Assembly (NCBI GenBank): GCA_950295325.1
Contig: OX485804.1
Coordinates: forward strand, 38,256,001-38,320,000
Length of the DNA stretch: 64,000 nt
DNA from: Polytrichum commune
Taxonomy: Eukaryota; Streptophyta; Polytrichopsida; Polytrichales; Polytrichaceae
Direction of reading: 5' to 3'
Shown: piece by piece, positions 30,225-59,777 of the stretch
Numbering within the stretch: position 1 is the stretch's first letter
Layout of the letters: each line of letters opens with the position of its first letter
Made by a program: the position numbers and the translations under genes
Notes under the pieces: model-generated
Told to the model about the DNA's origin: nothing
The model's database searches: none
Seen by the model: the letters and a program-made list of their open reading frames with translations, nothing else

Positions 30225-31180
30225 TCAATCGAATCATTGATCAAAACAAATGGATTCATTGATCGAAATGTGTCATCCTTTTAATGTGTGGGTGAGTTGC
30301 AGAACGAAGCGAATCATTGAACCTCCTGAGTCTGTTTAGGCTGAGTTGTTAATGCTGTCGGTGAACTGTGGGATTCAAGCACCTAGTATCTGTAGTCCGA
30401 AATTCTTTTACACGGTTTTGTGAAGTTTGGGTCGTCAGTATTCGAGTACTCGAGTGCGAGTTCTTTTTGAAGATTTCAATCGATTGTTGTGTGAACATAG
30501 TATACCAGGACATAAGTGGTTCTTAAGTACCAATTCGCGTGATCCAAAAGTGCGATATAAGTCGGTGTACTAGTGAATGTGATGTGCTCTAATAACTCTC
30601 TCGTTTAATGGCGCAGTCTCTGCAACAAATCAAAGCAACTGCTGGAGCTGTAAGTAGATCGCAAATTTTCACAAAAATGTTGCAAGGTTTAATTCCACAC
30701 TTGTCATCCTTTTGATTTGTAGGTAAAGTTCAGAACAAAGAAAATGATAAAAAAAACACCTCATCTTTTTCATTTTTTAGGGCTGTAATGCTGTCGGTGG
30801 AACTTCGGGATTTGGGTCAAGTGCACCTCTGAAGATGGGCGATTTTTTGTTTTTTTTCAACATTAGTAGATAACCAGGACATAAGTGAATCTTGAAAGCT
30901 CCCGTTAACCAAAACTGTGACATTTAGTCGGTGGTTTGATCTTCACTTAGTTGAAGCTTTTTAGGTGCCTCATTAAGCGGCCCATTCTCTCCAACAATTA
31001 ATCCGGCTGCAATGTTGCAGGGTTTAACTCCGCACTTGTACTTGTTCCTTTTCATGTATGATTGCATTACAGAACAAAGCGAATGACTTAACCAACCTTT
31101 GAATCTTTTTAGGGTGAATTAGATCGCTGTTGGTGAACTCTGGGAATCAAACAGCTAGTAAGTACTAATAAGGTATGTCG
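30225..31180 (+). repeat. Three degenerate tandem units of about 320-420 bp
   Basis: The same ordered blocks occur three times: 'cacttgt..tcctttt' with 'cagaacaaag', then 'tttttagg' with 'gctgtcggtgaac', then 'gggattcaag'. Starts are near 30270, 30690 and 31030. The first two units also share 'accaggacataagtg' and 'agtcggtg'. The copies are strongly diverged, with no clear reading frame across all three. Confidence 0.55.
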
Positions 31181-31454
31181 GTGGTATTCGGCTCGTTTCA
31201 TGTTCTCCAACTTCTACTGATTAGATTTACATGAAGAAACTTGTGTTGCATTAGCAAATCTACGATGAAGCAGCAGTAAAAATCAGACCTCCCCTGATTC
31301 AGTTATGGTTATCGGAAGTGCATGTTTTTGGATTCCTTAACTGAATACATAGGTCCTCCCGATTCATGCGTTCATTATTGAGTGTGGAGTAGTTAACAAG
31401 ATTTGAAGACATAGTCTCTTTCAAATCTCTTTCAAACATGATGTGTATTTTATG

Positions 31455-31550
31455 TTGTTTGATCTTTGATCCTCACCGTACTGCACACCAGTCACTATAG
31501 GTGCCCGATCAAGAAAAGTAAGCGTATAATACCCGCATACCTTATTGGAT
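31455..31550 (-). repeat. Repeat family A fragment, inverted relative to the next copy
   Basis: On the minus strand this reads 'taaggtatgcgggtatta', then 'gggcacctata', then 'gaggatcaaagatca'. It lies 180 bp from, and in opposite orientation to, the longer copy at 31729. Confidence 0.55.
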
Positions 31551-32130: not shown

Positions 32131-32482
32131 ATGGTATCTAGACACAGGATGACCTTGACATATTCAAAGGGACAGATAGTGCTGCTACAATTCTCTTTGA
32201 GCTTGACACAGAGCTAGCACCCCATGAAGAGATTCATTTGGCTATGGAGAAAGTGTTGTATTTTTTTGCCAGTTTGAAACGTTGAGCAAAAGTCTTGCAT
32301 CAAGAGAGCAGATTTCTATGTTATTGAGTAATGAATTCCATGTGACTAGAAAATTGAGTTGGGATGAAGCAACCAAGCAACCAAGCAACCAACTGACGAT
32401 TGGAATGTACTAGGTTTCGTACTGAAGTTTGCGGGCATCACATTGCACGAGAAACAATTCAATCTTTTTGCTAAGAGACACG

Positions 32483-33583
32483 ATGCCTTGGAACAAGTCC
32501 CCGAATCTTGGGATGTACGAGGGCGCCAACTGGGATGGCTACGTGAAAACGGTTCCAAACAGCTCCCCCGAGCAAGCACGGCGAGTCGCCATGTTGGATC
32601 CCACCATCACCTTCTTCTTCTTCTTCCGCGAATACATGGTGCTCACAAACCCGCAGTGGCCGAGCTCCAAAGTATTCAAGTCTGGCGACGCGGTGTTCTT
32701 CAAAGGCGAGCCATGGTTCGGAAGCGCGACACAGTGCGACGCGTACCAAAAAGCCGGGACGAGCATCGCCTATGTGAGCCCGTCGGCCGTGTCGGTACCC
32801 GGCTGCTTCACCACGAGCAACGGTAGCGCGGCCGTCGACGTGGTGTGCATTTTCGCGGCGAACATCGACCAAAAGCTCCCGAACGGCTCCACGTTGCTCG
32901 CTCCCAACGTAACGGTCGCGTCGAACGGCTCGATCGCGTGCGGGAACCCCGAGACCATGCAAGCACTACGGAACACGACGGCGATTCAAAACTTGCAAGC
33001 CAAGGGCATCATGGTGCTGCTCACCCTACTTAACAACCACGACGCGGCCGGGTGGTCCGAGTTCAGGAGCGCGTCGGACGCGCAAACGTTCGTGAAGCAA
33101 CTCGAGGTCGCCGTGAGCACGTACGGCTTGGACGGCATCGACATCGACGACGAGTACTCGGCGGGCTCTTCGGTTTCGAGCTCGCTCGCCATGGTCACCT
33201 CCATGATGAAGACCGCGATGCCCGACAAGATCATCTCCAAGGCGTTGTGGGACGACACCCAATACTTCGGCGTCGTGTACGAGAATTCGACGCTGGAGCA
33301 ATCGTTGACCTACGGATGGGAGATGTCGTATGGCTCTCCACCCGCGGACGTCATGCCGAAATATGTGAGTGCGGGCATGAACAAGAGCGCGTTGTCAAAA
33401 GGGTTTTATGCCCCCCAACCTTCTGCGAATGTGAGTGCGGATGTCGAGTGGTTGAAGTCGAATGGCTATGCAGGGGTCATGGCCTATGCTTTCCAGGATG
33501 AAGTCAACCAGGTATTGTTGGGTACCCTGGTGGATGCGTGGGTTGGGCCAGGAAACTGGAACAAGGCCGCGAATTGCACATAA
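32483..33583 (+). CDS. Endo-H-type GH18 endo-beta-N-acetylglucosaminidase, intronless
   Basis: The single ORF of 366 residues carries the GH18 signature DxxDxDxE as D217, D220, D222 and E224 in LDGIDIDDEY. E224 would be the acid and D222 the assisting residue for substrate-assisted cleavage of the chitobiose core of N-glycans. Further Endo-H family blocks are VVCIFAANID (121-129), KGIMVLLTLLNNH (174-186), FVKQLEVAVSTYG (203-215) and MPDKIIS (246-252). The family is mainly bacterial and fungal; the usual plant enzyme is the unrelated GH85 type. Eleven N-x-S/T sequons suggest a secretory route, yet no signal peptide follows the ATG at 32483, so an upstream exon may be missing. A stop at 32423-32425 closes the frame upstream. 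The ORF is markedly GC-rich compared with its flanks, though PetM here is too. Chitinase activity is an alternative. Confidence 0.85.
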   Translation: MPWNKSPNLGMYEGANWDGYVKTVPNSSPEQARRVAMLDPTITFFFFFREYMVLTNPQWPSSKVFKSGDAVFFKGEPWFGSATQCDAYQKAGTSIAYVSPSAVSVPGCFTTSNGSAAVDVVCIFAANIDQKLPNGSTLLAPNVTVASNGSIACGNPETMQALRNTTAIQNLQAKGIMVLLTLLNNHDAAGWSEFRSASDAQTFVKQLEVAVSTYGLDGIDIDDEYSAGSSVSSSLAMVTSMMKTAMPDKIISKALWDDTQYFGVVYENSTLEQSLTYGWEMSYGSPPADVMPKYVSAGMNKSALSKGFYAPQPSANVSADVEWLKSNGYAGVMAYAFQDEVNQVLLGTLVDAWVGPGNWNKAANCT

Positions 33584-33618
33584 TTGGACCGATCGCTTCA
33601 TCCACCAAGAGTAAGGAT

Positions 33619-33620
<2 letters not shown>

Positions 33621-33652
<32 letters not shown>
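33621..33652 (+). repeat. (GA)16 microsatellite
   Basis: A pure GA run 38 bp after the GH18 stop codon, probably within its 3' UTR. No other feature was recognised between it and 34560. Confidence 0.95.
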
Positions 33653-33656
<4 letters not shown>

Positions 33657-34564
33657 GCCGAACAGCCCATGCTTGCTTTGGTCCTCATGTAATTTGCTTG
33701 CAGGTGCTCAACTAGGCACATGCAAGAAGGTTCTGACAGATGAAGAACAGATCAGGAAGTAGTATTCCTTAGCGTTACTCTTAAAGGTCAAATAGAGGGT
33801 GAAACTCAAGAAAAATTCATTGAGTTTCGTAAGCACTTCTATTCTCGTAAAGCTTCACGACATCGCTAAGCCTCATGCTACCTCACCCCCTTTCTAAATA
33901 ATAAAAAAAAGATGCCCTATTTCATGAGGACCTTGCCGCAAAACTACGAGTGGAGGCCCTTGTCCACCTCATCCTACCCAGAGTGTTTATCTCTAGTATT
34001 ATATGAACATATATGGAGTTTCCCACCTACGCACTTTTCTAGTGCCAGACCTAGTTGGATGTGTACATGGCAGATGCTAAGACCCACCATATCCACCAAG
34101 GCTGGCTGCTCCAAAGAAGCTGCGCTCCAGGTTTTTCGTAGAACTTTGCAACAAAAACTCATGATCCGATTGGCTGCAACACAAAAGTATGGGTGTTAGT
34201 TAATGTGTGAGGAGGAGGTCCATTAGATAACAACGCTGATGTAATACATTCACTCATGTCTGCGTGGTAACAAAGTGAAGGAAGAGTTTTCTTTGGAACT
34301 GATGGAGGAATGGCAATCTGCAGAAGAATTGTGGAGACGAAGTAACTTATATATTTGTTTCGGTCTTGCGTGTTCCGAGAGCTTGGATTCTGCAGGTGGA
34401 GATCCATTTGAAGGGTTGAATCCTCATTGTAATGGGATTTTGATCTGTGAAATTGTCCACTTTCATACTTGACGAGGATTATTTGCAGGGTGGCTTGATA
34501 CATGTATAATTTGACGGCCATGTCACCGTCACGTCTGCTTCGAGTGATGAATGTAAGGCCCAAG

Positions 34565-34690
34565 AGATTACCCTTGCCTTGCACTTGAATGCAAAAGAAG
34601 CGGGTTGTGTATTGCGTCGAGGCGGAAGAGGATTACATCGACATTCTCCTCAGCTTTCTCGTGCTGCCATCGTGAAGTTGTTCACAAAAA
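34565..34690 (+). pseudogene. Fragment resembling the N-terminus of plant DUF674 proteins
   Basis: One frame reads ITLALHLNAKE and, after a shift of one base near 34598, another reads RVVYCVEAEEDYIDILLSFL then VLP and a stop. The pattern (short strand, basic turn, VV.AEA..D.VDIL.SFL.LP) fits the opening of DUF674, a plant family of unknown function. The frameshift and the lack of downstream sequence indicate a broken copy. The match is from memory of the family pattern and needs a profile search. Confidence 0.4.
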
Positions 34691-52146: not shown

Positions 52147-52770
52147 AAAGGAGACTCCAGGGAGATTTTTGGGCACAGCCAGTCACATCCTATTGCTTCC
52201 AAGTCCAACTGGTTACATGCTGTGATCTTTCAGTTTTTCTTTACTAATGTGAGGTATGTTCCATAGATTCCTCTTAAACAATCAGTAAGTCTCCTAAAGT
52301 CTTGAGCTTCAACTGGTTCATCTGTAACTAACCGCCGGTTATATTCGATAGATTCCTCTAAATTGATTGGTAATTCTTCTAAAGTCTCCAACTTCGACCG
52401 GTTATTTCTCAACTCAACCGGTTCATCTGTAACTAACCGCCGGTTATATTCGATAGATTCCTCTAAATTGATTGGTAATTCTTCTAAAGTCTCCAACTTC
52501 GACCGGTTATTTCTCAACTCAACCGGTTCATCTGTAACTAACCGCCGGTTATATTCGATAGATTCCTCTAAATTGATCGGTGATTCTTCTAAAGTCTCCA
52601 ACTTCGACCGGTTGTTTCTCAACTCAACCGGTTCATCTGTAACTAACCGCCGGTTATATTCGATAGATTCCTCTAAAATGATCAGTAATTCTCCTAAAGT
52701 CTCCAACTTCGACCGGTTATTTCTCAAACTCAACTTCATCTGTAATGAACCGCCGGTTCTTCTCGAGCAG
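52147..52770 (-). repeat. Dispersed repeat family B, copy 4, with internal tandem expansion
   Basis: Outer blocks match copy 2 ('ccagggagattttgggca', 'ggtatgttccata', and the minus-strand frame VEAQDFRRLTDCLRGIYG). Its middle has expanded into the 105-bp tandem units listed next. Confidence 0.7.
52321..52738 (-). repeat. Four tandem 105-bp units, open in frame on both strands
   Basis: Units start at 52321, 52426, 52531 and 52636 with about 95% identity by eye. 105 bp equals 35 codons, so any stop-free frame stays open: 169 codons on the minus strand (units NNRSKLETLEE then INLEESIEYNRRLVTDEP) and 141 on the plus strand. Each unit holds palindromic CCGCCGG and ACCGGTT words. Translation is not implied. 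Confidence 0.9.
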
Positions 52771-55679: not shown

Positions 55680-55866
55680 AAAGGGAAGGGGCGATGGCCG
55701 TGTGAGAACCACGCACGGCAATCGCACCTTATCCTCACGCTCATTATCCCTCGCTCCGCTTCACGGTCGCTGCACTCGAACTCCTTCTCGCACTCAATCT
55801 CGTCTCGTCGCTTCGCATCGCATCGCATTTCGGAGTGATTGCAAAGACCAAAATCCAGGTGCAGAA
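55680..55866 (+). promoter_or_regulatory. Proximal promoter and leader of PetM
   Basis: GC-rich and CT-rich sequence between the tandem array and the ATG at 55867. It contains an I-box-type GGATAAG (minus strand, 55728-55734), common in light-regulated plant promoters, and pyrimidine patches (ctccttctcgcactc). The transcription start was not resolved. Confidence 0.4.
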
Positions 55867-56244
55867 ATGGCAGCGGCAACGGCAATGAGGTCGGCATGCG
55901 CTGCGGCCGTGGTGCCGTCGCTCGCACAGGCACCCGCGGCCAAGAGGTCGAACGCCGGCGCGTCCATGAGCATGCGGAGCTTGAAGGCGTTCGGGGGTTT
56001 GAAGCCTGAGAGCCAGGTGTCCAACCTCGGTGTGTCGCAGTGCACGGAGCAGGCCTTCGCTGCGGTGAGGGCGAGGTGCAACAAGCGTGCCGGAGCTTCC
56101 CGGGGCGGAGCTGCCGCGTCGACTTGCGATGTGGCGTCCGAGATTTTTCGCATCGTGCCAATCATGAGCGGCCTGACGTTGATGGGAATTGCGCTCGGGT
56201 TCGTGCTGTTGCGTGTGGAAGCCGCCGTCGAGGAGTCGGAGTAG
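55867..56244 (+). CDS. petM: Cytochrome b6-f complex subunit 7 (PetM), plastid precursor
   Basis: 125 residues in one exon. Residues 1 to about 85 are rich in Ala, Ser and Arg with almost no acidic residues, as in a chloroplast transit peptide. The mature part ([19 protein letters not shown] then [16 protein letters not shown]) has one membrane span at about 96-115 followed by the FVLLRVE and acidic tail typical of PetM. PetM is a small peripheral-helix subunit that stabilises the b6f dimer in the thylakoid, between photosystems II and I. The ATG at 55867 starts directly with MAAATAMRS; the frame is open further upstream, but that part looks like leader. The gene is GC-rich and lies between the two GT31 copies. 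Confidence 0.9.
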
Positions 56245-58592: not shown

Positions 58593-59777
58593 CTATTGAA
58601 ATGTGGCGCCCCAGACAGCATCATCACCCTCCCCACATCTTTGATGCACCTCCTTTATCCTTTCTACTGACTTGCAAATCCCACTGCATGTCCAATCAAA
58701 GGATGCCACACACACATTTCCTGCTTGTGCCTTCCATTCGCAGTCCGGGGGAGTCCCACAGCACATGCTCCTGTCATCTATGTGATCCACATCAAGTCCG
58801 ATGATCCAAGAACCAAGAGAAACATCCTCGTTTGCATACCTGTGTAAAAGGGGCTGGTTCACAGCAATATATGTCGCTAGGTCTTTTGAAAGCGCATAGA
58901 TCTGTCCAGTTGCATGCCGGAAGTACTTGTTCCCCTCCTCCCCAAATTTCCAGTACTCCGGTTCGTGGTATTTTACACCCTTCTGTGCCAGGACAGGCCC
59001 AGATTTCATACACCCGATGTATACGCGAGGCTTCGACCGATGTCTGGCCAATGTGGTTCCAAGCATCCCAAGGTTCACGTGCACATCATCGTCCACCTTC
59101 ACATAGAAGTCTGCATCCCATTTCTTAACTGCTGTTGCAAAGTAGATCTTGGTCTTCATGGACAGCTCGTGGTAACCCTCAACGTGATCCAGCCGCATGA
59201 AATCTCCATGCTGGGCATCTTCAGCCTCAATTGCCCGATCCAGAATACCTCCAGGGGTTGCACTATGACCGATTACAAACCGGATCACAATGCCCTTTTC
59301 CTGTTCCAACTGCTTCAGCCTGTCTCCTTGAGGCATCCAAGTTTCCCGTACCGAATCCCTCCTCTTCCGACTACTGAATGCCGTGTTTATCCCTACTACT
59401 ACAAAAGCTTTCTGCCGTCCGTCGGCAGGCTCTACTACTGTCTCATGGACGGGAATAGGTCGTGGTTTGCTGCCAGAATTCTGTTGCGCACGTGCAGCTG
59501 CAAGCTCCAATTCTAAAGAAGAGATTGTCTTATCAAGCGTTTGGATCACTTGATGTGTCCTGGAAACTTCGTCAAAAATGTTCTTCTGGGCAGCATCTCC
59601 GTTGCCCACTTTGGGCTTGGGGTCACATCCGCTTCTAAGCGCATCATTCATGTCAGGATTGCTCCACATTCGGTTGGTGAACAGCAATCCAACACAGAAA
59701 CTCGCAAAGCAGAGGACCAGAACACCCTTCCATGATACATTGCTGGCTCCTGATCCTCCACTCCCCCGCATGCGCAT
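58593..59777 (-). CDS. GT31 beta-1,3-galactosyltransferase-like protein, copy 2
   Basis: 394 residues, intronless, with the same architecture as copy 1: membrane span at about 18-34, Glu-rich stem, GT31 domain with [19 protein letters not shown] (DDD at 229-231) and EDVSLG (317-322). Differences from copy 1 concentrate in the stem at residues 40-115 ([14 protein letters not shown], and [14 protein letters not shown] for [12 protein letters not shown]). The catalytic part is almost unchanged, which suggests purifying selection on both copies. The two genes point towards each other with about 11.6 kb between their stops. Confidence 0.92.

Follow-up and report, generated by a model that had tools for sequence, protein, structure and literature searches.

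An intact gene for a predicted bacterial-type, Endo H-like GH18 protein in the genome of the moss Polytrichum commune

Working with a window of DNA from Polytrichum commune (the whole stretch analysed, 64,000 nucleotides, C2:38256001-38320000), we find an intact single-exon gene whose predicted product, P0001, is by its sequence a bacterial-type Endo H-like GH18 protein. The account that we favour, and consider probable, is that the plant received an endo-beta-N-acetylglucosaminidase (ENGase) gene of the Endo H branch, the donor being a bacterium or else some unsampled lineage that carried a copy of bacterial type; a gene encoding the GH18 domain plus an N-terminal domain of ~88 residues would thus have entered the nuclear genome horizontally and stayed intact. 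The direction of transfer is something that we infer, as are the activity, cytosolic location and biological role of P0001.

An intact Endo H-like reading frame

The open reading frame extends in a single frame of 366 codons from an ATG at 32483 to a TAA at 33581–33583 (Table 1), and is closed upstream by an in-frame stop. An earlier note on this stretch, made from its letters alone, had described an open frame of this length with the motifs LDGIDIDDEY and MPDKIIS, and we confirm both motifs as well as the ATG-to-TAA frame. The start methionine is backed by 11 bacterial homologues that align from the same residue; in 10 of these it is the first in-frame ATG, with the eleventh (L028) having a further ATG six codons upstream.

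The Endo H-type GH18 assignment proposed in the same note also stands: P0001 scores 36.5 bits against the Pfam GH18 family (PF00704), above the curated cut-off of 29.6, and Endo H is its best match in the PDB both by sequence (E 2e-21 with the single protein; 3e-37 with a 12-row profile) and by fold (see below), with Endo F1 and the Bacteroides ENGases next in the sequence ranking and chitinases far behind. Against the NCBIfam Endo H equivalog NF045482 the score (E 8.6e-31, 107 bits) falls short of the 300-bit cut-off, so that P0001 is to be regarded as a relative of Endo H and not as Endo H itself; its bacterial sister sequence, L030, likewise stays under 300 (113 bits). A protein search of the whole 408-Mb assembly (407,808,757 bases, 64 contigs; E <= 0.01) with P0001 returned its own gene as the sole match.

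Table 1. Positions of the gene, its parts and its surroundings in the window; in the last row, positions follow the name of each locus.
Feature	Position	Strand	Basis or remark
Single-exon ORF, P0001, 366 aa; predicted bacterial-type Endo H-like GH18 protein	32483–33583	+	Frame, Pfam, PDB, NCBIfam, homologues, tree
N-terminal domain, residues 1–88, common to 11 bacterial homologues	32483–32746	+	Alignment with homologues
GH18 (beta/alpha)8 barrel, residues 89–362, Endo H fold	32747–33568	+	Predicted model
Catalytic motif DGIDIDDE, D217–E224	33131–33154	+	Alignment
High-copy host repeat upstream of the gene	31170–31545	+	Scored copies mostly 76–80% identical, on C1–C7
Upstream stretch, no match elsewhere among the 40 of 8,416 candidates scored	32121–32482	+	Holds the in-frame stop at 32423–32425
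Host repeat downstream of the gene	33955–34600	+	Long copies (78–85% identical) on C4, C7 and C2; shorter pieces as well
Host single-exon GH18 genes	L013 1078–2148; L015 1219–2178; L016 1189–2175		Single open frames

Predicted fold, active site and N-terminal domain

An AlphaFold model of P0001, calculated with 12 sequences, has a mean pLDDT of 90.9. In this predicted model the barrel superposes on Endo H with a TM-score of 0.85 by target length (Foldseek), and VIA-align gives a Z of 28.9 and an rmsd of 2.3 over 252 aligned residues with 29% identity. All four acidic residues of the DxxDxDxE motif (D217, D220, D222 and E224) are invariant in the 12 rows of alignment A2, which comprises P0001 and all 11 relatives that match it from residue 1.

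The published study of EndoBT-3987 (PMC7021837) names D312 and E314 as catalytic, and gives N230, N245 and H277 an important part in the binding of high mannose; it describes the latter three positions as preserved in Endo H, in Endo F1 and in other enzymes, and as replaced in the fungal enzymes Eng18B, Endo18A, EndoT and EndoFv. One row of our alignment A1, L018 (its source being a record in the phage collection that derives from human faeces), carries N230, N245, H277, D312, E314 and Y315 in agreement with the numbering of that paper, and these residues align with N127, N142, H186, D222, E224 and Y225 of P0001. By alignment, P0001 therefore has both the counterparts of D312/E314 (D222/E224) and the Asn/Asn/His triad for the alpha-1,6 mannose arm (N127, N142 and H186); the intact catalytic residues claimed for it before are indeed in place, as are all residues of the catalytic motif. 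All 11 full-length bacterial rows have N127, D222, E224 and Y225, whilst N142 and H186 are each present in 10/11. The tyrosine of the MSYG motif, Y283, probably corresponds to Y380 of that study; the alignment is three columns off at this point, with E280 facing Y380, and the pairing is accordingly our own reading. A fungal Endo T-type origin was considered as well, and is disfavoured by N127/N142/H186 as aligned.

Residues 1–88 are well conserved, with a mean column identity of 69% over 12 rows. Searches with this domain gave no Pfam match above a cut-off in the six rows tested (the best, for the plant row only, being plastocyanin-like at E 0.14, below cut-off) and no credible sequence match in the PDB, where the top hit (complement receptor 1, E 0.0051) adds up weak stretches between residues 55 and 78. 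A single-sequence model of the domain alone was useless (pLDDT 42), and when the whole model was searched by fold, most of the rows among those listed covered residues 87–366 only. Two cysteines found in the bacterial rows, C27 (10/11) and C48 (11/11), are both lost in P0001, where Ser and Phe take their places (window 32561–32626).

Chromosomal setting

The earlier note had placed the gene among repeats, and had named contamination of the contig as a finding that would overturn a transfer. Repeats do flank the gene on both sides (Table 1): the upstream one returned 8,416 first-look candidates in the assembly, of which 40 were scored, some with identities down to 67%, whilst the 1,017 bases downstream of P0001 have 33 listed matches elsewhere, some of them long and many short. 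The gene thus appears, from the host repeats either side of it, to be integrated in the host chromosome. That the contig is contaminated or chimeric is a reading that could call upon the step in GC at both edges of the gene and upon relatives that are bacterial; we regard it as highly improbable, because both flanks carry repeats that are copied on other large contigs, and against it also stand a window without any N, the position of the gene inside C2 (at 38.29 Mb, with other matches on C2 reaching 55.3 Mb) and leucine codons nearer to those of host GH18 genes than to those of L030.

A pyrimidine-rich tract at 32464–32475 (CTTTTTGCTAAG), together with an AG just before the ATG, may represent the 3' splice site of an intron in the 5' leader. 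The genes that could be named nearby lie 12 to 26 kb downstream of P0001: two galactosyltransferase-type ORFs (PF01762; 45759–46934 on the forward and 58593–59777 on the reverse strand), closely similar to each other, single-frame and inverted, with PetM (within 55702–56244) between them. A further ORF at 52230–52739 on the reverse strand is built of tandem repeats of a unit resembling LRNNRSKLETLEE...SIEYNRRLVTDEPVE, and has no Pfam match above a cut-off. Elsewhere in the assembly, PsaA and PsaB are found on contig C8, with short PsaA/PsaB-like fragments containing stops at C4:47707642-47707821 and C5:337267-337371 that are probably plastid DNA insertions. In the PDB, the chains nearest to this PsaA are 8htu and 6l35, from Physcomitrium patens. 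The remaining own-genome matches, among those listed, are all on C1–C7, which suggests seven nuclear chromosomes; n=7 is typical of Polytrichales.

Base composition and other glycosidase genes of the host

The ORF has a GC content of 0.584 and keeps its codon-position structure (GC1 0.50, GC2 0.46, GC3 0.792), and in tiles of 100 bases there is a step up near 32500 and a return to 0.39–0.47 near 33600–33700; the statement that the gene exceeds its flanks in GC is thus borne out, at the 3' side by tiles of 0.39–0.47 outside the ORF. Its use, together with the want of introns, as a sign of foreignness fares less well. Both features are true of P0001, but three other GH18 genes of the host (L013, L015 and L016) are likewise single-frame and GC-rich, with GC3 values of 0.635 for L013 and 0.708 for L015 and L016, and we have set both arguments aside as proof of transfer; on the other side of the balance, six more GH18 matches, in three close pairs, have the look of split genes. 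The caveat previously attached to the GC content, that high GC alone is weak as PetM is GC-rich too, is sound: the GC3 of PetM is 0.689 over the whole listed frame and 0.787 from its presumed ATG. The corresponding values are about 0.51 for the galactosyltransferases and 0.790 for L030.

Synonymous codon usage in P0001 correlates at 0.82 with L013 and L015 taken together, 0.83 with the L030 homologue, 0.74 with the neighbours of L030 and 0.42 with the galactosyltransferases. Leucine is encoded mostly by TTG and CTC, and rarely by CTG (the main leucine codon of L030), in which respect P0001 is nearer to the host GH18 genes. As its codon usage fits the host GH18 genes and L030 about equally, composition neither proves nor dates a transfer. 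Nor is richness in CpG a foreign mark, since the observed/expected ratio of 1.25 in the ORF (flanks 0.36–0.84) is accompanied by high values, 0.95–1.22 and 1.06–1.07 in two sets of calculations, for L013, L015, L016 and the PetM region.

The same figures bear on the question of whether the frame is an idle passenger, or encodes a non-catalytic binding protein. Some plant GH18 relatives have become non-catalytic, the DNA around the gene is rich in repeats, and C27 and C48 of the N-terminal domain are gone; against this, the 366 codons contain no stop or frameshift, every residue of the catalytic motif is present, and CpG is not depleted in the ORF as compared with its flanks. On balance we think either reading unlikely.

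In total, the genome gave 11 GH18 matches: P0001, the three single-exon genes, six that fall into three close pairs and look like split genes, and L017, which is below cut-off and has no frame of 150 aa. By eye L015 and L016, about 10 kb apart on C4, are near-identical; L013 has a chitin-binding domain. GH85 matches come in three pieces at C4:10467604-10469641, with stops within the matched stretches and stop-free stretches that alternate between frames, as in a gene with introns. On these matches, both ENGase families appear to be represented among the genes of the plant.

Bacterial relatives and phylogeny

The search for relatives that the earlier note called for has yielded sequences that are bacterial, or from plasmid and phage records. 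Bacterial genome contigs were scanned with alignment A1, and the best 80 of 366 relatives (79 loci) were kept, so that nearer ones may be missing; with four from plasmids and phages (L002, L003, L018 and L019) the analysis comprises 83. Single-protein scans of genome contigs and of viral contigs found no relative, nor did a scan of viral contigs with A1, and partial matches to P0001 were present in 4 records of the phage collection and 5 of the plasmid collection.

Eleven of the 83 match P0001 from residue 1; all are bacterial, with identities of 43–62%. They comprise L030 from the Proteobacteria MAG SZAS-23 (62%), three Flavobacterium sequences, those of an Acidobacteriaceae MAG, of Owenweeksia, Fluviicola and Methylobacter MAGs and of an alphaproteobacterial MAG, and two from Dyella. 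On its contig L030 adjoins ilvC and genes for the acetolactate synthase small subunit and an ABC transporter, which mark it as bacterial DNA. A full-length profile (E <= 1e-40) matched 1/397 genomes in the order of L030's genome, 1/385 in its class, 2/397 in the family of the Flavobacterium genome G002 and 1/396 in the phylum of the Acidobacteriaceae MAG, each count including the seed genome; the sole non-seed match, in G702, spans profile positions 89–363 and is without the N-terminal domain. On account of this rarity the two-domain family looks sporadic amongst bacteria, as far as such counts can tell: the samples are even draws from larger groups in which carriers can be missed, and although the Flavobacterium carriers L021 and L022 are known, no second full-length match is among those listed for the Flavobacterium-family sample. 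In the Dyella family (233 genomes), a profile of the N-terminal domain matched two, with open frames of 365 and 378 codons. Separately, the Thermoanaerobaculia MAG G008 (source of L031) has two Endo H-like genes, at C46:34844-35893 and C99:21091-21921, one matching nearly the whole profile and the other from position 85 only.

Our larger tree contains 37 rows, namely P0001 and 36 of the 83 relatives. Left out by hand were L018, L039 (frame broken as extracted) and a further 45, for the most part near-duplicates of Streptomyces, Curtobacterium, Pedobacter and Mucilaginibacter; L031 and L032 entered as partial proteins. A second tree is built upon the 12 rows of A2, and the full-length second gene of G008 is in neither A2 nor this tree. 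In the 37-row tree P0001 pairs with L030 (99/98) within a clade of 14 rows (100/100), the others of which are all bacterial: Pseudomonadota (5, including L030), Bacteroidota (5), Acidobacteriota (2) and Myxococcota (1). The branching order inside this clade is partly unsupported, and the root is a midpoint for drawing only. The pairing with L030 recurs in the 12-row tree at 91/89 (not starred), at 95/92 with the GH18 part alone and, weakly, at 69/56 with the N-terminal part alone; a tree constrained to group P0001 with only the Flavobacterium rows is rejected (p-AU 0.0079, for a group named after the tree had been seen).

The tree that the earlier note had proposed as a check thus nests P0001 amongst bacteria, within a comparison made up of bacterial rows only. 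As P0001 is the sole eukaryotic sequence in both trees, the direction of transfer is read from sampling, and a plant or fungal clade could lie between it and the bacteria. Nor need L030 be close to the donor, and the mixture of bacterial phyla in the clade, as far as the sequences tell, fits movement among bacteria as well.

An identity of 62% to the nearest bacterium, and a tree path of 0.58–0.68, would also allow great age. The gene could then belong to an old plant family, passed down vertically since an ancestor among the early land plants or algae (perhaps itself after an early transfer) and lost in most plants, with which a codon usage compatible with the host would agree. We consider such a history quite improbable, as the closest relatives found come from Pseudomonadota, Bacteroidota and Acidobacteriota alike, and we know of no Endo H-like GH18 gene of the P0001 type in seed plants.

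Sequons, leader sequences and cellular location

P0001 contains 11 N-x-S/T sequons, as against 1–5 in each of 13 bacterial rows (two of them partial). Shuffling of P0001 gives a mean of 3.61, with 11 or more in 0.02% of shuffles (1 of 5,000), in a test chosen after seeing the sequence; five bacterial rows shuffled in the same way have counts near expectation. Eight of the 11 (at positions 4, 113, 142, 148, 164, 300, 316 and 364) have no sequon in the same columns of the 11 relatives, with that at 26 being common to 10/11 relatives, that at 268 to three and that at 134 to one. So many sequons are odd for a cytosolic protein, and we have counted them against the explanation that we prefer.

By eye, neither P0001 nor any of the 11 bacterial rows shows a signal peptide. 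A scan for a leader exon in 1,990 upstream bases found two hydrophobic starts that overlap and that both lack a donor site; such a scan is weak, because one or more complete candidates also turned up in 26% of 62 control stretches.

The gene could have reached the plant through a eukaryotic go-between, such as a fungus that took it from bacteria and secreted the protein, and both the excess of sequons over the bacterial rows and the eight positions absent from the relatives' columns speak for this, as does the report of moss NAS genes of fungal and of bacterial origin (PMC12454661). Set against it are the residues at the three mannose-binding positions, which are bacterial in P0001 and differ in Eng18B, Endo18A, EndoT and EndoFv according to PMC7021837, the want of a visible signal peptide in P0001 and the 11 bacterial rows, and the choice of the sequon test after looking. 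We judge a go-between unlikely.

Alternatively, a captured Endo H may have been reshaped for the secretory pathway or cell surface, with sequons being gained and the two conserved cysteines lost on the plant branch; exported through an unrecognised upstream exon or unconventionally, it would remove the N-glycans of microbial glycoproteins, those of fungi among them, as a defence enzyme distinct from the plant's GH85. This we hold to be doubtful.

Proposed activity and significance

Returning to the transfer of an intact ENGase gene, which we consider the best explanation, P0001 would hydrolyse the GlcNAc-GlcNAc core of high-mannose N-glycans by a substrate-assisted route. In this scheme E224 would serve as the acid/base and D222 would position the acetamide, whilst the alpha-1,6 mannose arm would be held by N127, N142 and H186. 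In GH18 chemistry an Asp turns the C2 acetamide for attack and a Glu donates a proton, leaving one GlcNAc on the protein. The triad would point to high-mannose specificity, and the missing signal peptide to action in the cytosol, where P0001 could act alongside the product of the GH85 gene, its substrates being free glycans or glycoproteins that have misfolded; it might otherwise meet microbial glycoproteins by non-classical release or on wounding. A leaderless form is the one that would be expected to be kept, since an Endo H directed to the ER would deglycosylate the glycoproteins of the cell itself.

The transfer of microbial genes into mosses is a known kind of event, to which the Endo H-like gene would add a new member. 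Transfers from both bacteria and fungi into mosses have been published, and mosses are described as having NAS genes of both origins (PMC12454661); from a hornwort, a transferred glycosyl hydrolase gene is reported (PMC7027989). In the titles and abstract openings of the open-licence literature we found no publication on a GH18 gene of the Endo H-like kind from mosses or liverworts, which does not prove that none exists.

Laboratories use Endo H, an enzyme from bacteria, as a standard reagent; a plant with its own intact bacterial-type Endo H beside a GH85 gene would offer a natural test of what cleavage of the N-glycan core is used for in plants, and would add to the microbial enzymes that mosses have retained. 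With a single match in the assembly and an intronless frame, the expression, activity and loss of the gene are directly testable.

Comparison with known systems

The closest characterised likeness is to Endo H of Streptomyces plicatus (GH18; PDB 1edt/6ve1), with which P0001 shares the barrel fold, the DxxDxDxE motif and the N/N/H residues for high mannose. It differs from Endo H in its 88 additional N-terminal residues, in having no visible signal peptide and in reading SKALWDD where Endo H has SLYNIG; compared with the Streptomyces row, it has 12 more residues between N142 and H186. The barrels of EndoBT-3987 and BT1285 (Bacteroides thetaiotaomicron) and of Endo F1 are the same as that of P0001, at Z 25–28, and the key residues of EndoBT-3987 are shared. 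EndoBT-3987 itself differs in its signal peptide and in the beta-sandwich domain at its N-terminus (PMC7021837).

Nearest in architecture are the bacterial two-domain proteins (from Flavobacterium, Dyella, the Acidobacteriaceae MAG, the Methylobacter MAG, SZAS-23 and others), which are like P0001 over their full length, in their aligned start and in lacking a visible leader; unlike P0001, they keep C48 (11/11) and C27 (10/11) and have few sequons. Within the host, L013, L015 and L016 are, as is P0001, single-frame, GC-rich members of GH18, but they have hydrophobic leaders by eye and were not returned by the P0001 protein search of the assembly (E <= 0.01). The cytosolic GH85 ENGase of plants belongs to a different glycosidase family (PF03644); it has the same class of reaction and, if P0001 is leaderless, would share its compartment.
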